From the NCBI GenBank assembly GCA_002786715.1, contig PCTW01000016.1, positions 122,949-155,325 on the forward strand: DNA of 32,377 bases. The letters are read 5' to 3'. Of the stretch, positions 4,758 through 14,104 are shown piece by piece. A program made the translations under genes and the position numbers. The notes below the pieces were generated by a model, which worked only from the letters and a program-made list of their open reading frames with translations, made no database searches and was not told the DNA's origin. The number at the start of each line of letters is the position of its first letter. Positions within the stretch are counted from its first letter, which is position 1. Source of the stretch: Bdellovibrio sp. CG22_combo_CG10-13_8_21_14_all_39_27. Its GTDB lineage: Bacteria; Bdellovibrionota; Bacteriovoracia; Bacteriovoracales; Bacteriovoracaceae.

Positions 4758-5300
4758 TTAGAGTTTTTCTTTGCGAATACCAAATTTGTAGAGCGCAACA
4801 TTTGTTGCGGTATGAACAAATGCGCCTATGGTGACTCCTAAAAGAATTAACGGAGCATCAGGAGTTACAAAGAAATAGTAAAAAAGTGATACACCTAGTC
4901 CACTGTCAATGTGGTCTAGAACAAAGAATAATTTTTTATTTTTTTCACTGGTTTTACCAGGTTCAACTCCCAATCTTCTTTTAATAAAAGAATTAGGAAG
5001 TTCAAATAAGACATAGGAAAAACCGAGCCCGAGACCAAAAAGAACCCAGTGCTCATAAATTCCAATTCGTTGTACCTGTGAGATCAGGTTGTCTAAAAGT
5101 GCGACAGGGAAAATACCTAATAAAGTCCCTAAAGGCATAATAATAAATCCTCTCCATGTCTTATTCTTGCCAAAAGTCCACTTGTGAATTGGAATTTTTA
5201 AAAAGGAAAGCCAATCTTTTTTTACCGCAATCATGTGAATGATTCCACCAATCATGAGTGGGAAACTTAAGAGATAGGCTTTCCAAAAAGTTAATAGCAT
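4758..5300 (-). CDS. CDP-archaeol synthase (CarS, DUF46)-family membrane protein
   Basis: This is a 180-residue integral membrane protein of the CarS family. In archaea these enzymes use CTP to activate unsaturated archaetidic acid to CDP-archaeol, and the bacterial members have no settled substrate. Diagnostic stretches are FGKNKTWRGF (43-52), LPNSFIKRRLGVEPG (101-115) and the LDHIDSGLG segment with D129 and D132. About five hydrophobic helices surround them. The length equals that of archaeal CarS (about 160-180). The ATG overlaps the methyltransferase stop by one base (TAATG), so it is the last gene of a coupled three-gene operon with a fatty-acid desaturase. A role in activating a lipid phosphate is likely. 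An archaeal-type ether lipid is not demonstrated. Confidence 0.8.
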   Translation of the reverse strand: MLLTFWKAYLLSFPLMIGGIIHMIAVKKDWLSFLKIPIHKWTFGKNKTWRGFIIMPLGTLLGIFPVALLDNLISQVQRIGIYEHWVLFGLGLGFSYVLFELPNSFIKRRLGVEPGKTSEKNKKLFFVLDHIDSGLGVSLFYYFFVTPDAPLILLGVTIGAFVHTATNVALYKFGIRKEKL

Positions 5301-6292
5301 TAAGTTGTCTTCTTTTTAAGGATGACTGTTTGCATGGATAGATTTAACCAGCGATGGAGCATATCTAACGGCCAAAAGAGTGCCGTAAAAATGGCATATC
5401 CCCAAAAATGGTTTTCAAGAATAATTCCTCTTCCTTTGTTAAATAAAAAGAGAAAACCAAAATAAAGATAAAAAAGTGGTGGAAAGGCTCCCCAAGGAAG
5501 GTATTCAACAATCTCAAAACCACTGTCTTGAACCATATTTAAAAAATGTTTTTTATCAAAAATGGTTAAATGTTGAGGAGCTTGCACTCCTGGCCAACGT
5601 TTTCCTTGGAGCGGGTAAGTGAGACAGTCAAGTCGAGGTACTTCAATGACAAGATGTCCATCATCTTTAAGGAGTTCTCTTGCCGTTGCTAATGATTTTT
5701 TTGGTTGGTAGCAATGTTCGAGAAAGTGCCACATCGTTATAACATCGAACTTTTGACCTTTAAAATCTTGATCATAAAAAAAACCTAGATAACTATTGAT
5801 TGGAGCGGCTTCAGGATAGTTTGAGAGATCTTTAAAGTCGACGCCCGATACCTTTGTTCCATACTTATGATGCATATGAAGAAGGTAAGTTCCAATCGCA
5901 CATCCAACATCTAGAATGTGTGAATTTGAATCTATCTTTTTATGACGAGTCACGATTTTATCTTTCATTTTATCGTGTTGTGCAATTCCGCGTTTAAATC
6001 CCCAGTCTCTTAGCTTACCTTTGCTTCTTCTATCATGGGCAATGTAATCATCATCGTAAAAGATTTTTATATTATCGCTGTGTACTCTTGGGTTCAGGTA
6101 AACAAATTGGCAATTGTTACAAGTGACGTAACGGAAATTGCCAGTTTTTCCTGTGAGGTCATCTTGTCCAACAAGCAAGGGAGTAAAGTCATCAGTTCCA
6201 CATTGATAGCAAGGAACATATTCAAACTTAAGATCGCTGGGATTATCAAGCTGTTTAAAATTGTCCAATGATTCTTTACTTTGAGATTGCAT
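5300..6292 (-). CDS. Zinc-ribbon SAM-dependent methyltransferase with hydrophobic C-terminus
   Basis: This is a 330-residue class I methyltransferase. A putative zinc ribbon is formed by C28-x2-C31 and C58-x2-C61, followed by FVYLNPRV, an arrangement common in Methyltransf_23-type enzymes. The SAM loop is ILDVGCAIGTYL (about 127-138), and the post-I acidic residue is in VSGVDF. A WHFLEHC motif and KDDGHLVIEVP complete the Rossmann core. Residues of about 270-315 are rich in F, Y, L and W and look membrane-associated, which fits a lipid-linked substrate. It is flanked on both sides by TAATG one-base overlaps, with desaturase upstream and CarS-like protein downstream. The methyl acceptor cannot be read from the sequence. 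Given the neighbours it is probably an acyl chain, lipid head or isoprenoid. Confidence 0.85.
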   Translation of the reverse strand: MQSQSKESLDNFKQLDNPSDLKFEYVPCYQCGTDDFTPLLVGQDDLTGKTGNFRYVTCNNCQFVYLNPRVHSDNIKIFYDDDYIAHDRRSKGKLRDWGFKRGIAQHDKMKDKIVTRHKKIDSNSHILDVGCAIGTYLLHMHHKYGTKVSGVDFKDLSNYPEAAPINSYLGFFYDQDFKGQKFDVITMWHFLEHCYQPKKSLATARELLKDDGHLVIEVPRLDCLTYPLQGKRWPGVQAPQHLTIFDKKHFLNMVQDSGFEIVEYLPWGAFPPLFYLYFGFLFLFNKGRGIILENHFWGYAIFTALFWPLDMLHRWLNLSMQTVILKKKTT

Positions 6293-7254
6293 TATATTTT
6301 TTCTCCGGTTTGTGTACTGTCTTTGAATAAGAGCTCAAGGGCATCCATTTGTTTCACCTTGAGGGCCCAAGGAAGAATGTCGTAGGTTTGGGGAAAGTTA
6401 AAATCATACTGAGGAAAATAATAGGCAGGTAGTGAAGGAAAACAATGATGAAGTTCGTGGCGATTAAAATAAAAGAGAACATAGGCTTCGAGCCAATGAG
6501 GACAACGAAGTGAACGCGTGTACTGGACTTGTTCATAATTCGTATGAGGTTTAAATTTACCATGACTTATTGGCATTGGAATATGATTGTGTTGAGAAAG
6601 CAAAACGATATCCATAAAGGCCAAAGATAAATACAGGCCTAGTCCAAAAGTTAGCAGGAGAGCTGCTCCGAAATAATAAAAAATGAAGCCATAAAAAACG
6701 ATGAGGAAAATGATATTAAGTACAATTCTTTTCCTGAAGTAAGGGTCTTCTATTGTTTGAAAAACGGCCTTGATATTCCAGTAGGTTCCTGCTCGATACA
6801 TAATGGAAAATAGTGGAATCCATAATCTCCAGCACCAGCGATTAAGAAACTTTTGAAAAATATTGAGATTGTGAACTCTCGGATCGACTTGTATTTTTGT
6901 CGTTGGATCTTCATTCTTCCAACCTGCAAGTCGGTGATGTTGTCGGTGAATGGCTTGCCAGCTATAAAAAGGCAGAATGGCGAAAAGGGAAGAGAGATGC
7001 CCAAAAAAAACATTGAGTTTCGTGTCTGGGAGTAACGTATTATGACCGCATTCATGAAGAATGACAAAGTGTTGCACAAAAGCTGTGGCCAAAAGAATTT
7101 GACCGATAAAATAAAATCCGTCTGAACGAAGTGTTAAGTAAAGACCAGAGAATGTGGTGAGGTAAGTAATAATGAGCCAACGAAATCCTAAGCTTTCGCT
7201 AGCGGTAAAGCTTTCAATTCGCTCTCTGGCATTTTGATATTCTTGCCGATTCAT
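6292..7254 (-). CDS. Membrane fatty-acid desaturase/hydroxylase family protein
   Basis: This 320-residue membrane di-iron enzyme has the three histidine boxes HECGH (67-71), HRQHH (103-107) and HELHH (266-270). An extra QHNH lies near 221-224. Hydrophobic helix pairs are placed as expected for FA_desaturase proteins, which introduce double bonds or hydroxyls into acyl chains or carotenoid-like lipids in the inner membrane. It is the first gene of the operon desaturase - methyltransferase - CarS-like, and the next gene starts in its stop codon (TAATG). It is transcribed divergently from the secreted protein at 7322, with 67 bases between. The regioselectivity and the acyl-CoA, acyl-ACP or lipid substrate are not predictable here. 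Confidence 0.9.
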   Translation of the reverse strand: MNRQEYQNARERIESFTASESLGFRWLIITYLTTFSGLYLTLRSDGFYFIGQILLATAFVQHFVILHECGHNTLLPDTKLNVFFGHLSSLFAILPFYSWQAIHRQHHRLAGWKNEDPTTKIQVDPRVHNLNIFQKFLNRWCWRLWIPLFSIMYRAGTYWNIKAVFQTIEDPYFRKRIVLNIIFLIVFYGFIFYYFGAALLLTFGLGLYLSLAFMDIVLLSQHNHIPMPISHGKFKPHTNYEQVQYTRSLRCPHWLEAYVLFYFNRHELHHCFPSLPAYYFPQYDFNFPQTYDILPWALKVKQMDALELLFKDSTQTGEKI

Positions 7255-7270
7255 TGATTTCCAATATTTT

Positions 7271-7279
7271 TGTTATACT
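7271..7279 (+). promoter_or_regulatory. Extended -10 promoter element
   Basis: The sequence TGTTATACT matches an extended -10 (TGnTATAAT, one mismatch). It lies 43 bases before the GTG start at 7322, in the short divergent gap. No convincing -35 is seen at 17 bp, as is common for extended -10 promoters. Confidence 0.45.
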
Positions 7280-7321
7280 TTTATTCTAAAGCTCACTGAT
7301 TTATCATCATAGGGGAAAATT

Positions 7322-8698
7322 GTGCTGATTCGTCTGATATTATTTTTTTGCCTCTCAAATCATCTTCTCGCATCCTCCGTTGATCCTATGCTTGAACCTC
7401 TGAATCAAGAACTGGTGTCCATTGATGATCCACTGAAATATAACGATTTTTTCAATCGTGTTCAGAAATTGTCACTCGAAAACCCAGAGCATGAAGGCTT
7501 ACTGCTTTATTCAAGTGTCGCTCGATTATTACAGAGTATTGAGGGGATTACGTGGCTTGAGGAAGGTTTTTATCGCCAATCTGACTTCCTGTACTCAATT
7601 TTTGTCTCGTTTATGAGGTCGACTTATTCACCAGATTACGTGATTGGAACCCATGTTCGAAAGTATGGACGATATTTTACAGAGCCTCATATGAAAATGG
7701 GCCAGTTTGCGAATCTTTCTGATTTGCAAGATCACTTGATCAAAGTCATCATGCCAGCACTTGATCATTTGATCAGTGTTCTGGATCGTCTTTCACGCAA
7801 AGAAAAAATTGAACTTGTACTTGATCAGCATGTTTTGGTCGGATTCGTCGCTAAAGAGAGAACAACTAACAAAGAAGATTGGTTTTTTATTCCTGAAGAT
7901 GAGCGCTTTAGAATATTGAGGGCTCCTCATTTTGCTTTGATGAAATCTCAAATGGAGCTTTTAGCTGGAGTTGTTAGTTATTTTAGTGCTTACAATTTAG
8001 ACCTCTTTCCCAAATATATCGATTATCTAATTCAGACTGTAACATGGCGATCTTTAAAGAAGATTCTTCTCTTTAGAAAATATGTTGAACCATTAACTAC
8101 CCAAGATAAAGTTGAAGCGCTAAAAAAAGATAAATTTAAAAATTTTCTTACTTTAACAAAACCTTTAATGACTTTAAAGGCGCTTGAGTATTGGCGCAAC
8201 TCCACTCTCTCTCGTAGATTAGCGCTTGAAAAATTTCAGAAGATGAACAGGTCGAGTTCTCAAGATCTTTGGGATGTTGATGAGTTTAAGTGGCGTGCCA
8301 AAACTGAACTGCCCATGCTTCGTTTAAGAGAGGAATTTTTAAATGCTGCCGTTCATGGGGAAGATTATAAAATAACTGTTCCAGCGACTCGCTATACATT
8401 TAAATTGCGACCAAAGCAGCTATTTATGATCACAGATTATAAATCCCTGTTGGCAAAAACGTTTTATGGGGAAGCTCAAAGAAAAACCTGGGAAATCGAT
8501 CATAAGGTCGCTCCTCATCCCCTTTATGGAGAGTTTACTGTGTGGGACTTTAATTACGGAAAACCTGTGACCTATCTAGACCCCACATTTAATTTCTTTT
8601 TACCTGAGGCCAATGATGAGAATTATTTAGAGCTTATTAAGAGCTTAAGACTTTATCCGGCCATTGCACCTTTTGTTAACCTTCTGCCTCTACATTAA
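7322..8698 (+). CDS. Secreted/periplasmic protein of unknown function
   Basis: This is a 458-residue protein starting at GTG with a good ribosome site (AGGGGAAAATT). The N-terminus MLIRLILFFCLSNHLLASS is a signal peptide. The mature chain is mostly alpha-helical in character, rich in charged residues and leucine, with no low-complexity tract. Its C-terminal third has many aromatic and Pro-containing turns (for example APHPLYGEFTVWDFNYGKP). I recognise no domain or catalytic motif. Its last 9 bases overlap the end of the convergent UbiA-like gene. The gene sits exactly between the two lipid-type minus-strand operons, so a role in the same process is possible but unsupported. Confidence 0.8.
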   Translation: MLIRLILFFCLSNHLLASSVDPMLEPLNQELVSIDDPLKYNDFFNRVQKLSLENPEHEGLLLYSSVARLLQSIEGITWLEEGFYRQSDFLYSIFVSFMRSTYSPDYVIGTHVRKYGRYFTEPHMKMGQFANLSDLQDHLIKVIMPALDHLISVLDRLSRKEKIELVLDQHVLVGFVAKERTTNKEDWFFIPEDERFRILRAPHFALMKSQMELLAGVVSYFSAYNLDLFPKYIDYLIQTVTWRSLKKILLFRKYVEPLTTQDKVEALKKDKFKNFLTLTKPLMTLKALEYWRNSTLSRRLALEKFQKMNRSSSQDLWDVDEFKWRAKTELPMLRLREEFLNAAVHGEDYKITVPATRYTFKLRPKQLFMITDYKSLLAKTFYGEAQRKTWEIDHKVAPHPLYGEFTVWDFNYGKPVTYLDPTFNFFLPEANDENYLELIKSLRLYPAIAPFVNLLPLH

Positions 8699-9364
8699 AT
8701 GAATGGCCAGCGAAACAGCTACGAGATAGATGAAAGAAGTGTATTTTTTAAAAGGCGTAGCTATGATGAATACACAAGCGATGGCCACAACAAAGGCCAT
8801 CAGTTCTAATTTCAACATCGCCAGTAAACCTAGTAATCCTAAAAGCACAGAAGAAAATTGAGCAAATACCGGGTAGTGTAAATTCTTATCATCATAGAGA
8901 TCAAAAACAAGCATCGCTAGATAAATCATCAAGCCCGGCAGCAAGGCACCGGTCCCATGAACGATCATTAAAAAAACGGGGTACTTAATAAGACCAACTA
9001 GAGATCGTAAAAGTCTCTTATCATGGGGAAGGAACCGCATAATGAGCAACCAAAGGGCAGTAAAGAGAGCTAGAACGAGTATTTGTTGTAAAGACATTGT
9101 GAAGAAAAAAACTGAAATCCAACAAAAGATAAGAGCTACGAAAGAAGTGAAATTTCTAGTTTGAGTCAGTATTCTTTCTGGATGATGAATCCTGTCCCAC
9201 TTCAAATCGCATAAGTCGTCAAACAATCTAAAAAGATAAATCAAGCAAAAGAGAGTAAGATGCTGTTGGTAACTTGATAGTGGATGAGTGAGCGCAACCA
9301 CTGCTACTAGTGCCAAAATTTTATTTCCATAACGTTGTGAAAAGTATTTAAGCAGATCAGTCAT
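8690..9364 (-). CDS. UbiA-superfamily membrane prenyltransferase
   Basis: This 224-residue polytopic membrane protein is shorter than the usual 280-300. The first aspartate-rich motif is LFDDLCDLKWDRIHHPER (about 48-64, D49/D50/D53/D57), equivalent to the NDxxDxxxDxxxxPxR of UbiA enzymes. The second is VFDLYDD (153-159). These bind the Mg-diphosphate of a prenyl donor. About seven hydrophobic helices are visible. I chose the ATG at 9364 because it forms an 8-base ATGACTGA overlap with the dikinase stop. An in-frame ATG nine codons upstream would give an atypical polar leader. As the last gene of the P450 - dikinase operon, it probably attaches or moves a prenyl or related group. The acceptor is unknown. 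Related families include DGGGP synthase and quinone prenyltransferases. Confidence 0.82.
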   Translation of the reverse strand: MTDLLKYFSQRYGNKILALVAVVALTHPLSSYQQHLTLFCLIYLFRLFDDLCDLKWDRIHHPERILTQTRNFTSFVALIFCWISVFFFTMSLQQILVLALFTALWLLIMRFLPHDKRLLRSLVGLIKYPVFLMIVHGTGALLPGLMIYLAMLVFDLYDDKNLHYPVFAQFSSVLLGLLGLLAMLKLELMAFVVAIACVFIIATPFKKYTSFIYLVAVSLAIHLM

Positions 9365-12020
9365 GCAGTTCGACCACTCCCGTATCTCCATGAACAGTTA
9401 TCTCTTGTCCATCTGTGATAAGCTGGCACGCGCCTTGGACTCCAACAATCGCAGGAATACCAAATTCACGGGCCACAATGGCGCCGTGACTTAACATTCC
9501 TCCGCGTTCAATGACTAAAGCTGAAATCAGAGGAAAGACTGGCGCCCATCCAGGATCTGTTTGCTTAGTAATGAGAATATCGCCAGGTTGAAGTTTTTTT
9601 GCTTCCAATGCCGAATTTAAAATTCTTGCGCGACCCCTTTTGGTTCCTCCGCAGGCAGGTAGACCTTTTAAGTTTTGTTCAGAGTCAAATTGGTCCGATG
9701 CTTTTAATTTAAAAGCACAATTTGGGGTAAAACTCTGTCCTTCAGGTAGTAAAAAGGAATCTGGTGGATTATAGGTTGAGACTTTTTTAAATTGATCTCG
9801 ACGTAGTGTGATCAGATCTCGCAGTCCTTCTTGAAACATTGAAGCACCCGTTAAAAGTTCCGAGACTTCGCGATAGGTAAGGTAAAAAATATCTTGATCC
9901 TGGGTAAAGAGTCCTTCCTCTTTGTAGAACTTATTTAATTCCAAGAGTGTCTTACGAAAGGTTCCATAGAGCATCGTTTGTTTTAAGCGAACTCTTTCTC
10001 GATAGCGAATTCCTTGTGCGGTTGCTGCAACTAAAAATTGAAAGATAACGACTTTAAATGGCCATAGAATAAGATCCCATGGCTTTTTAAATAGAGTAAA
10101 GCTCACTTTCCAGATAAGTAGCCGACGTTCTACCGACTTATGAGCAATTTGTTTTTTGGGTGATTCAATTTCTATTTGCAAATAACCTTGGAGTATTTCA
10201 ATGAAGCCTTCTGGCCTTTCTTGAAAATTAGGTTCAGTAAGCATCAGCTCTCCTGAACAGCGATGGCCCCAATGGATCAGGAACTGATTAAAATTTTGAT
10301 AAAAATCACTAAAGCTTTTGTTGTGAGATATTTCATGCCAAATAGCGTCTGGCTCCTTTTTAAAAAGATCTCTGAGCTCATTAGATGATTTTATTTGTTG
10401 TGATAATTCCCAAATCTTTTGTGGGGGGATCGAGCTCACCACATTTGGTATTCCTTGGAGTAAGGTATTTTTGAGTTCGTCAGAATTTTTAAAGTAGCGC
10501 TTTAAAAAAGAGCCTAAGAGACCATAGCTCATCATGGCCGTGGTATCGGCCAGCGAAGCTTTTTTCCAGCTAAGAAAGCGAATGAATAAGAATTGATGAA
10601 AGAGCTCTTTAAAGTGTTGCCAACGTTCATCGATGGTAGGAAATTTGCGAGAGCTTTCGAGGTGTTCATCAATTTCTCTCTCGAGAGATGCAACTTTTGT
10701 AGGAATAGATAGAATGGTTAATAGTGACACTGTTTTGATGCGCCACAATTCATAAAGTTGGATCAAGAATGAGCGTTTTTCCGATTTATCTATGACTGAA
10801 GTTTCAGTGTCCTTCGGATCACCTACAAAATTATTAAAATAACTGGAGAGTTTATTGCCAAAAGGAAGAGCATGGAGACAAGTATGAATGGATGTCATGT
10901 TGTAATACATACGCGCACCGTGACAGCCGATAATATTTTTTAATTCCCATTCATATTTAAGAAGTCGATTTTCGCGCAGACCGACACTTTTACCCATATC
11001 TCTAAAATAATGATAAAACGATTGAAGTGCGATTGAATAAAGCATTGGAGTTATGGGACGTGGATAGTTCTCATTTACATTTACATTTGACCAGTAAATC
11101 CATTTTTGCTGAGGTTGTGCGGTTGTTGTAATGGGACGAGATTGAACCAAATACAATCGATCTTGAGAATCTACCGCCCACTCAATGTCACATGGGCCCA
11201 TTTGAGATTCCAATTTTAAGGCCAATTTTTTTAATTCATTGATCCACATTTCCTGGCCACTCAGTCCTATTACTTGATCTTTGTATTCAGGTTGCTCTGG
11301 GTCATGGAGAAGAATTGCTGTTGAAGTGTGACGAGGTATTTTAAATGCTCCTGGATTAATTTCTCCAGCAACTAGGCGCTCTGCATGGCCATAACAATAT
11401 TCGACCATCATTTCATCTTTGTTCTGATTCAATGGATTGAGTGTAAATAAGACGCCAGCATATTGCGGACGGATCATATATTGAACTACGACACCCATAC
11501 CCTTAAGAGAAATACTTTTTGATTTTTGATAAAAGAGAACGCGATCTGACCAATATGAAGCCCAGCATTTTTTAAGTGAATCAATCAATTCTTCGTCTGT
11601 GCCTTCAGTTTGATAACTTTCCAACTGTCCTGCAAATGATGATTCTACGCCATCTTCTCCGCAAGCACTTGAACGAACCATGTAGGGTCCCTCCGGAAGT
11701 CGTGCTCTTTGAAAAAGGAGGTCTTCTACGATTGGGGTAGGCACGTGGCCGGAAGTGATAAGTTCTTCAATTTGGAGAGAGGTTTCTTTCAACGATTCGG
11801 GATCGAGGTGATTAGAGATAGCTACTAATTCAGTGATTTTTTCTTTCAAATGATTGTGATCAAGGAAGTAGTCAAAAGCCTTTTTTGTGACAACAACTCC
11901 TGGAGGAATTGGTAATCTGTCTGCAATCATTTGGGAGAGATTAAAAGCTTTCTCGCCACATTCGGTAACATCGATTTCATCCGATAATCTGTGTATCCAT
12001 AAACTATTTGGTTTTTTCAT
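9357..12020 (-). CDS. PEP-synthase/rifampin-phosphotransferase-like ATP dikinase
   Basis: This 887-residue protein has an N-terminal ATP-grasp domain of the PPDK/PEP-synthase type. Visible motifs are GEKAFNLSQM (22-31), VRSSACGED (115-123), ESSFAGQLESY, GVLFTLNP (189-196) and CDIEWAVD followed by VQSRPIT (277-298). A middle region of about 450 residues does not resemble the PEP/pyruvate TIM barrel. The C-terminal swivelling domain carries the phospho-histidine motif GGMLSHG with H845. The order ATP-grasp, substrate domain, His domain, and a catalytic His about 42 residues from the end, match rifampin phosphotransferase (about 865 aa) rather than PEP synthase. Such enzymes convert ATP to AMP plus Pi and put the beta-phosphate on a small molecule. 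Here the gene is coupled to a P450 (ATGA overlap) and to a UbiA protein, so the acceptor is more likely a lipid or isoprenoid alcohol or metabolite. That acceptor is inference. Confidence 0.88.
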   Translation of the reverse strand: MKKPNSLWIHRLSDEIDVTECGEKAFNLSQMIADRLPIPPGVVVTKKAFDYFLDHNHLKEKITELVAISNHLDPESLKETSLQIEELITSGHVPTPIVEDLLFQRARLPEGPYMVRSSACGEDGVESSFAGQLESYQTEGTDEELIDSLKKCWASYWSDRVLFYQKSKSISLKGMGVVVQYMIRPQYAGVLFTLNPLNQNKDEMMVEYCYGHAERLVAGEINPGAFKIPRHTSTAILLHDPEQPEYKDQVIGLSGQEMWINELKKLALKLESQMGPCDIEWAVDSQDRLYLVQSRPITTTAQPQQKWIYWSNVNVNENYPRPITPMLYSIALQSFYHYFRDMGKSVGLRENRLLKYEWELKNIIGCHGARMYYNMTSIHTCLHALPFGNKLSSYFNNFVGDPKDTETSVIDKSEKRSFLIQLYELWRIKTVSLLTILSIPTKVASLEREIDEHLESSRKFPTIDERWQHFKELFHQFLFIRFLSWKKASLADTTAMMSYGLLGSFLKRYFKNSDELKNTLLQGIPNVVSSIPPQKIWELSQQIKSSNELRDLFKKEPDAIWHEISHNKSFSDFYQNFNQFLIHWGHRCSGELMLTEPNFQERPEGFIEILQGYLQIEIESPKKQIAHKSVERRLLIWKVSFTLFKKPWDLILWPFKVVIFQFLVAATAQGIRYRERVRLKQTMLYGTFRKTLLELNKFYKEEGLFTQDQDIFYLTYREVSELLTGASMFQEGLRDLITLRRDQFKKVSTYNPPDSFLLPEGQSFTPNCAFKLKASDQFDSEQNLKGLPACGGTKRGRARILNSALEAKKLQPGDILITKQTDPGWAPVFPLISALVIERGGMLSHGAIVAREFGIPAIVGVQGACQLITDGQEITVHGDTGVVELHD

Positions 12021-13363
12021 GTCAATTTCCTACGGGTCAAAATCAAGGGGACGCCACCTTCAGGTCTTAAACTCACTTGAAATGCAGGTTGAACCGTGTG
12101 TCCTTGAGGTAGTTCAATCTTAAAATGTTGAATTAGAGTTGGGATAATAATCATCATTTCCATTCTTGCGAGCATCTCTCCTGTGCAGGCCCGTGGTCCT
12201 GAGCCGAATGGGATATAGGCCATGGGATGAGCAGGGCGATCGCGATCAGGATTAAATACTTCTGGATCAATCCAGTGTTTTGGGTCGTGATGAATCAGAT
12301 AAGGCGAAATGATAAACACATCGCCTTTTTCAATCGGATGACCAAGAAGATCAGTATCATTTTCACAAATGCGTCCGAGACTCCAACTAGGAGGATAGAG
12401 TCTCATGCTTTCATTAAAGACTTTAGTAAGCTCAGGCATTAAATCCATACTTTCAAGACTAGGAGCTTTAGTGCCGAGAACATTTTTAATTTCATTTTCA
12501 ACAATTGCTAACCATTCTGGATTCTTGGCCAGTAGATAAAGCGTCCAAGATAAAACGGAAGAGGTTGTTTCATGACCGGCAAAGACCATGGTTTTAACTT
12601 GATCGCGCAAGAATACTTCATCCACTTCATAGGGTGCTTGCATAAAAGCATGAACCATATTGTGTTCAGGATCATTTGGGGCGCGCTTTGCTCTTGCAAT
12701 TAAATCATCAATGAGAAAATCGAGAGTTTCAATTGACTGATAGAACTGTTTAAAGATTTTCTTTTTCTTTGGTCCTGGAAAGGCCAGAGCATTGGCCATG
12801 CGCTCGTTTGTTATTTCAACCAGACGAGACAGCTCTCTTTCAACAGTGTCTATCATATGACCAAGATCTTCATTGAAAACTGTTCAGCCCAAAACAGAGA
12901 GAGCGACTTGAGTCATATAGTGGGAGAGTAGCATCGGCTGGTTGGGCTTGAGTTCACGTGAGAGTTGTTCCACTAAATTTTGCGAACATTCTTGAATGAT
13001 CTGATTCCAATGGCCGTGATGGGCCTTGCTAAAAAAGGGTTGAACAACTTTTCGAATCTTCAACCATTGATCACCGTTTTCTGTAAAGACGCCATTGCCT
13101 GTGACTTCAGCAACCAAACGAAAACCTGGAGTATTCTTGGAATAATTACGCGCATCTTTTTTTAAGATGAGTTCAACGGCGTCGAGGTCGGTTAATTGAT
13201 ATGTTCGATTTGATCCCAATTGAAGCTGAACAAAGTCACCATAAGTTTCTTTCATGCGAATCATAAAGGGGTAACGACCTTTGGCGAATTGCCTAAGATG
13301 CCCGGTTAAAAAACCAGTCCATTTATCTTTTGGTGGCACCACAGGCTTCAAAGCTTGAGGCAT
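12017..13363 (-). pseudogene. Cytochrome P450 interrupted by one in-frame TGA
   Basis: This is a complete P450 monooxygenase reading frame of 448 codons, broken only by a TGA at 12886-12884 (codon 160) after ALSVLG. The same frame continues with TVFNEDLGHMIDTVE. The first half has the C-helix WLKIR (W100, R104). The second half has the I-helix AGHETTSS (about 262-269), ExxR as ESMRLYPP (E318, R321), FNPDRD, and the heme loop PFGSGPRACTG with the cysteine ligand at about 393. No other disruption is seen. A good ribosome site (AAGGAC) precedes the ATG at 13363. The final TGA overlaps the dikinase ATG. It may be a recent pseudogene, a sequencing error (CGA or CAA-like codon to TGA), a readthrough gene, or two polypeptides. 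The second half alone would lack the N-terminal fold. Confidence 0.85.
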
Positions 13364-13376
13364 ATTTTGTCCTTGT

Positions 13377-13404
13377 TTGAAATGAGATGTGTTTAAGCGA
13401 TAAT
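13377..13404 (+). promoter_or_regulatory. Promoter for acyltransferase-like gene, with palindrome at -10
   Basis: TTGAAA at 13377-13382 and GATAAT at 13399-13404 are spaced by 16 bp, 41 bases before the GTG at 13445. The -10 is part of the inverted repeat gataa-tt-ttatc (13399-13410), which could be an operator. The region is the shared gap with the divergent P450 operon. Confidence 0.5.
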
Positions 13405-13444
13405 TTTATCAGATAACTGCAAATTGCTCTAAGGGGAAAATATC

Positions 13445-14104
13445 GTGAAGGTAACTGCGAAAGACCGTATTCTAAATTTTATTTGTAAACCGACCTTACC
13501 TTTTTTTCCTTTTTCACTGCTCATTCTCGTCGGGTATTTCCTCTACCATTTTATCGAAACAAAAAACTATCTGTGCTTGGGCATGGCGATTTTAACCCCG
13601 TATCTCGTACCATTGCTTACTTTTCGTTTTCTCCAGTTGATTGCACCGATCAAAGAAGGGCCAAGTTTTTTCGGTGAAGAGAAATTTTCACCTTGGATTA
13701 GTAGTTTTCGTCTGCAGCAAATCTATGTCATGTTTCCAATACTTGAGCGAATGCTTTTCTTTATTCCGAATCTCTATAATCTTTGGCTTCGCGCATGGGG
13801 CTCAAAAATTGGTAAGCGGGTCTATTTTTTACCTGGAGTTGAGGTCGTGGATCGTGCCCATCTGGAAATTGGCGACAACGTCATGATTGGCAACAAATGC
13901 TATTTCTCACCCCATGTGGTTCAAGTCCGTAAGGGCCGTTTCTTTTTGTATTACAAAAGAGTCAAGATTGGTTCAAATTGTTTCATCGGAGCTTTTTCAA
14001 CTTTTGGACCAGGCACCACTGTGCCCGACAATTCTTCTATTCCTTCTGGATCGTATTATACAGTTAATAAATCTGAACCAAGATGCTTGATGCCGGATTA
14101 TTAA
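13445..14104 (+). CDS. Membrane-anchored hexapeptide-repeat (LbH) acyltransferase-like protein
   Basis: This 219-residue protein starts at GTG with ribosome site AAGGGGAAAATATC. The N-terminal 70 residues hold two hydrophobic helices (about 18-35 and 42-65). After a linker, residues of about 118-205 form left-handed beta-helix turns: IGKRVYFLPGVEVVD, LEIGDNVMIGNKCYFSPHV, VKIGSNCFIGAFSTFGPGT. These I/V-G-x-x hexapeptide units are typical of acyl- or acetyl-transferases. No obvious catalytic histidine pairing can be fixed. Related folds occur as terminal domains of NRPS-associated and surface-lipid enzymes. It is divergent from the P450-dikinase-UbiA operon and may acylate its product, which is inference. 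A long hairpin follows. Confidence 0.75.
   Translation: MKVTAKDRILNFICKPTLPFFPFSLLILVGYFLYHFIETKNYLCLGMAILTPYLVPLLTFRFLQLIAPIKEGPSFFGEEKFSPWISSFRLQQIYVMFPILERMLFFIPNLYNLWLRAWGSKIGKRVYFLPGVEVVDRAHLEIGDNVMIGNKCYFSPHVVQVRKGRFFLYYKRVKIGSNCFIGAFSTFGPGTTVPDNSSIPSGSYYTVNKSEPRCLMPDY

Follow-up and report, generated by a model that had tools for sequence, protein, structure and literature searches.

What does a dikinase of the rifampin phosphotransferase (RPH) type do when its neighbours are a cytochrome P450 and a UbiA-like membrane protein? The question is raised by the window (the whole stretch of 32,377 nucleotides analysed here), in which a preliminary description recognised these three genes as a coupled operon and proposed that they act in the order P450, dikinase, UbiA. 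The gene group is laid out as follows.

4758-5300, minus strand: CarS-like (CDP-archaeol synthase family) membrane CTP-transferase; PF01864 at 1.8e-12, conserved motifs.
5300-6292, minus strand: SAM methyltransferase with an N-terminal CxxC...CxxC zinc-ribbon-like part; PF13489 at 5e-24.
6292-7254, minus strand: fatty-acid-desaturase family protein; PF00487 at 1.4e-24.
7322-8698, plus strand: conserved hypothetical protein with a signal-like N-terminus; same place in the related cluster L037, 39% identity.
8690-9364, minus strand: small membrane protein, probably a degenerate member of the UbiA superfamily; start at 9364 or 9391; motif RLFDDLCDLKWDRIHHPER.
9357-12020, minus strand: small-molecule dikinase of the RPH type (887 aa), composed of ATP-grasp, a diverged middle domain and a swivel domain that bears His845.
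12017-12856, minus strand: cytochrome P450, C-terminal part; haem motif FGSGPRACTG, PF00067 at 5.2e-61, 4-base overlap with the dikinase start.
12884-12886, minus strand: in-frame TGA in the P450, codon 160; Arg (AGA, CGC) in relatives.
12887-13363, minus strand: cytochrome P450, N-terminal part, 159 codons; PF00067 at 1.7e-15, aligned with residues 1-159 of the intact 452-aa P450 of L037.
13445-14104, plus strand: hexapeptide-repeat acyltransferase; PF00132 at 6.1e-13, divergent from the P450, and found after the P450 in other dikinase clusters.

The three central genes do lie on the minus strand with overlapping ends: the P450 stop and the dikinase start share 4 bases (12017-12020). The 8-base overlap first described between the dikinase and the UbiA-like gene holds if the ATG at 9364 is the start, and becomes 35 bases if the longer ORF (ATG at 9391) is used. 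Promoter and terminator scans gave matches at chance level only. The plus-strand gene at 7322-8698 encodes a secreted-looking hypothetical protein without a family, whose same-place counterpart was found in L037 only.

The P450 had been read as one open gene, but that reading ran through a TGA: the frame is made of two ORFs, 12884-13363 (159 aa) and 12017-12856 (279 aa). The haem-binding FxxGxxxC motif is present, and PF00067 covers both ORFs, with its N-terminal part on one and its C-terminal part on the other. The nearest orthologue, that of L037 (genome G081), is a single ORF of 452 aa with AGA at the position of the stop codon, and the P450 of cluster L049 has CGC there. In about 430 kb of this genome, examined in stretches, TGA is a normal stop: 50 of the 200 coding ORFs there end in it, and beyond it the frame stays open for a median of 5 codons. 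Recoding of the P450 stop is thus ruled out, TGA being an ordinary stop here and relatives having Arg at the site; another in-frame TGA checked for recoding sits at the end of its gene. For the same reason the interruption is a nonsense mutation or an error of the assembly, which is a draft with N runs. In this strain the P450 probably has no activity; since the haem motif and the remaining frame are intact, any loss would be recent. One in-frame TGA also occurs in the orthologue of the cluster methyltransferase in genome G290 (L059, G290:C80:3739-4707).

The dikinase, on the other hand, is as first read. ATP-grasp, middle substrate domain and C-terminal swivel domain follow one another in one chain, Pfam places PPDK_N at residues 21-306 and PEP-utilizers at 811-881, and H845 stands 42 residues before the end. 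Among solved structures, those of RPH-Lm are closest in sequence (8e-66; PDB 5HV1/5FBS), and they are also the best match to the AlphaFold model (pLDDT 89), which aligns with RPH-Lm over the full length (Foldseek E 7.5e-41). R674 and E675 align with Arg666 and Glu667 of RPH-Lm, both essential for the second phosphotransfer (PMC4844700). Among 40 dikinase homologues H845 and E675 never vary and R674 hardly does; all three are also kept in homologues from Roseinatronobacter and Streptomyces. The window dikinase is therefore like RPH-Lm and the wider small-molecule dikinases in domain order, fold, catalytic His and acceptor-site Arg-Glu pair, but differs from RPH-Lm by a diverged middle domain, a biosynthetic context and a UbiA partner.

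Having the fold and the catalytic residues of RPH, could the gene simply be a rifampin phosphotransferase, i.e. an antibiotic resistance determinant? We consider this extremely improbable: the protein scores 310 bits against the curated RPH model, whose NCBIfam cut-off is 999, it shares about 22% identity with RPH-Lm when the RIF-active clade A shares >42% (PMC4844700), and its neighbourhood is conserved and biosynthetic. RPH itself was described as belonging to a large small-molecule dikinase family whose substrates are unexplored (PMC4844700). Fold, residues and conserved neighbourhood together place the window protein among the RPH-fold dikinases outside a resistance context, in agreement with the preliminary description. 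HpeHI and phenylphosphate synthase, two-component dikinases with a swivel His, phosphorylate small phenolic hydroxyls (PMC12167813). These enzymes have two subunits and serve aromatic catabolism, whereas the window dikinase is one chain in a lipid-type cluster.

A second comparison is less comfortable. PigC and RedH, related PEP-synthase-like proteins, are ligases of the prodigiosin pathways, so that the kinase activity of the window dikinase is not certain. It could be an ATP-dependent ligase of their kind, phosphorylating one partner for a condensation while a UbiA or an AMP-ligase supplies the other. Its NCBIfam score for PigC (309 bits) about equals that for RPH, it reaches 277 bits for RedH, and the clusters with AfsA, ICMT and KAS genes described below resemble routes to natural products in which a ligase could serve. 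Nevertheless these scores are far under the cut-offs (1300 for PigC and 1350 for RedH, as 999 for RPH), the best solved fold is that of RPH, and the Arg-Glu pair by which RPH handles phosphate is kept. Pyrrole ligase chemistry is not indicated, and we hold the ligase reading to be unlikely.

Which genes, then, accompany such dikinases? We compared 61 dikinases and their neighbours, all from the same phylum as the window. A UbiA-type gene lies within 6 kb of at least 54 of them (49 came from clustering and 3 are fusions to the C-terminus of an AMP-ligase; those of the window and of L083 were recognised by alignment). The fusions are directly upstream of the dikinase, at L120:8679-10949, L127:9477-11963 and L132:9335-11599. 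A UbiA-type family, F1 (about 300 aa), takes in other dikinase clusters the place that the small UbiA-like protein has in the window. It matches UbiA models, carries the motif DExKDxExDxxxxPxRPLPRG and belongs to the UbiA superfamily, the Roseinatronobacter member scoring over the Pfam cut-off and the other members below it. Searched over 143 genomes, the F1 profile gave 71 matches, 56 of them within 500 bp of a listed dikinase, when about 0.14 would be expected, and 61 within 5 kb; as the profile was built from dikinase neighbours, this proportion holds for that UbiA subfamily only, not for all UbiA proteins. Several of the F1 matches without a nearby dikinase are at contig ends. Of 61 P450 homologues, 20 also lie within 5 kb of a dikinase, far above chance (about 0.4 expected), but on the dikinase tree their presence requires at least 7 gains or losses. 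UbiA is thus the tight partner of the dikinase; the P450 is a recurrent but loose one, and optional. The neighbourhood survey that the preliminary description called for so brings out a recurring dikinase-UbiA pair and frequent P450s, but no fixed three-gene unit.

Further partners in dikinase clusters belong to lipid or polyketide metabolism: desaturase, PlsC, thioesterase, CarS, HMG-CoA reductase, DUF3419, KAS-AfsA and MMPL. DUF3419 (PF11899; family F11, e.g. L115:5029-6159 and L161:3835-4935) recurs beside dikinase-UbiA pairs; its recurrence suggests a headgroup transfer step. The family includes BtaA-type lipid headgroup transferases. A second dikinase-UbiA cluster lies in the same genome just downstream of the window (G000:C92:159727-165000; L036:3579-11165). 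It contains a formyltransferase-like gene and an alpha/beta-hydrolase/AMP-ligase fusion resembling OleB-OleC, and its type is the commonest in the phylum sample.

Closer to the window, ten dikinases, its own included, form one clade on the dikinase tree. Their clusters contain the small UbiA-like gene and the methyltransferase in all ten cases, the desaturase in nine, and the CarS-like gene and a PlsC-type acyltransferase in eight each. In the window the methyltransferase, desaturase and CarS-like genes (4758-7254) lie outside the interval of the preliminary description, which missed that they accompany these dikinases more regularly than the P450 does. The methyltransferase is the most conserved marker of the cluster; of 369 genomes of the phylum only 10, belonging to four families, have its orthologue, so the cluster is patchy. 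In four of the ten clusters an HMG-CoA reductase is fused to an APH-like kinase (PF00368 + PF01636). Such HMG-CoA reductase/APH-ecdysteroid-kinase-like fusions are at L039:7653-9965, L040:5207-7537, L042:5308-7593 and L083:6938-9289, and others occur in G012, G043, G105 and G111; this unusual form can stand next to a dikinase where the genome encodes a normal HMG-CoA reductase as well.

These data bear directly on the route first proposed, in which oxidation of a hydrophobic scaffold by the P450 creates a hydroxyl, this hydroxyl receives a phosphate from the dikinase, and UbiA carries out a prenyl or alkyl transfer. The immediate contact of P450 and dikinase in the window, their adjacency in L037, the number of P450s near dikinases in the survey and, in Streptomyces durmitorensis, a P450 directly after the dikinase all speak for it. 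Eight of the ten clusters of the clade nevertheless do without a P450, the P450-hexapeptide acyltransferase pair being confined to the window and L037; in genome G112 no P450 homologue was found at E <= 1e-20, though the rest of the cluster is kept. With the repeated changes on the tree and the interrupted frame in the window itself, this makes the P450-first route quite improbable, and as a general scheme it does not hold: most of the closest relatives do not keep the three genes together. As the P450-hexapeptide pair also ends dikinase-UbiA clusters of the KAS-AfsA type (L049, L133-L135), it looks like a movable tailoring unit.

For the small UbiA-like protein of the window no UbiA match was obtained in NCBIfam or in Pfam, even at E <= 10, where only a chance match to PRA1 appeared. 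Yet it keeps RxxDDLxDxxxDxxxxPxR at a position matching the F1 motif; in 23 aligned sequences R55, D58 and D66 are invariant and D/E164 nearly so, which gives it motif 1 and an acidic residue of motif 2. Its predicted model is a helix bundle, and the top two PDB matches of this model are archaeal UbiA-family lipid synthases, with E values of 0.4 and 1.0 that are not significant. With the UbiA superfamily, including DGGGP synthase (PDB 6M31, 7BPU), it shares the helix bundle and the first motif RxxDDxxDxxxDxxxxPxR, but it has 233 aa or less, its second motif DxxxD is changed, and neither fold nor profile match is significant. Of the UbiA identity first assigned to it, what stands is motif 1, the position and a weak profile and fold similarity; a Pfam match is lacking. 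These features lend moderate support to a shortened, degenerate relative of the UbiA superfamily. As the protein is short, below every curated cut-off and without significant fold match, its transferase activity may have been lost.

Our genome surveys cover the phylum of the window; other phyla were sampled through plasmids. With the window dikinase as query, plasmids gave no match at E 1e-60, although paralogue queries did, and a contig scan returned one distant planctomycete protein as sole match. The alphaproteobacterium Roseinatronobacter sp. S2 has a plasmid with one uninterrupted run of genes for UbiA, dikinase, DUF3419, a GNAT-like protein and an AMP-ligase; one cluster type of the window's phylum consists of these five families too. 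A Streptomyces clavuligerus plasmid has an operon of AfsA, ICMT, dikinase and UbiA-like genes (L184:7024-12401), in which the gene annotated "hypothetical" encodes a relative of F1 UbiA that scores 146 bits and carries both motifs. A plasmid of S. durmitorensis carries AfsA, ICMT, nitroreductase, dikinase, P450 and KAS III (L183:4669-13909) without a nearby UbiA. Dikinase and UbiA are thus a conserved pair in bacteria of at least three phyla.

Our preferred reading, to which we give an even chance, is that the genes at about 4758-14104 serve the biosynthesis of a lipid- or isoprenoid-type compound, the dikinase adding phosphate to a hydrophobic alcohol that a UbiA-type enzyme also handles. The beta-phosphate of ATP would pass to His845, the swivel domain would carry it from the first site to the second, and Arg674-Glu675 would place it on the hydroxyl of a hydrophobic small molecule. 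The UbiA-type transferase would then take up the phosphorylated alcohol, perhaps once the CarS-like protein has activated it with CTP; alternatively, the alcohol phosphorylated by the dikinase could itself be a UbiA product. The methyltransferase and the desaturase would decorate the product, P450 and hexapeptide acyltransferase being optional tailoring enzymes. The data show the gene pairing, the fold and catalytic residues of the dikinase and the accessory status of the P450; the phosphoryl transfer to a lipid-like alcohol and its functional coupling to UbiA are what we infer.

The second ordering within this reading has the shape of archaeal phospholipid synthesis: prenyl transfer by UbiA would precede phosphorylation, the dikinase would work on the resulting prenylated lipid, and the CarS-like protein would convert this into a CDP-lipid. 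In its favour are the CarS-like genes, frequent in the clade and present beside other dikinases, the four fusions of HMG-CoA reductase and kinase, and the nearest folds of the small UbiA, which are archaeal lipid synthases, the matches not being significant. The window CarS-like protein scores over the Pfam cut-off of the CDP-archaeol synthase family (PF01864), but only 58 bits against the 148 of the CarS equivalog; the cluster of G081 has no CarS-like gene; and geranylgeranylglyceryl phosphate (GGGP) synthase (PF01884) is absent from all ten cluster genomes, the controls being positive. With this enzyme absent, the classical archaeal G1P ether-lipid route is not supported, and we find the UbiA-first ordering rather doubtful.

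We found no published description of the dikinase-UbiA pairing in the open-access literature, which is weak evidence of novelty. Tentatively, RPH-type dikinase and UbiA-type transferase might constitute an unrecognised two-enzyme module, present in at least three phyla, for a phosphorylation-dependent prenyl or alkyl transfer making new lipids or meroterpenoid-like metabolites. Whatever its product, the pairing gives the open question of small-molecule dikinase substrates a handle: a defined partner, lipid alcohols as the likely class of compound, and hosts open to genetic work, among them the laboratory species Streptomyces clavuligerus. Many genomes have genes labelled "phosphoenolpyruvate synthase" or "hypothetical" that could be re-read as one pathway.
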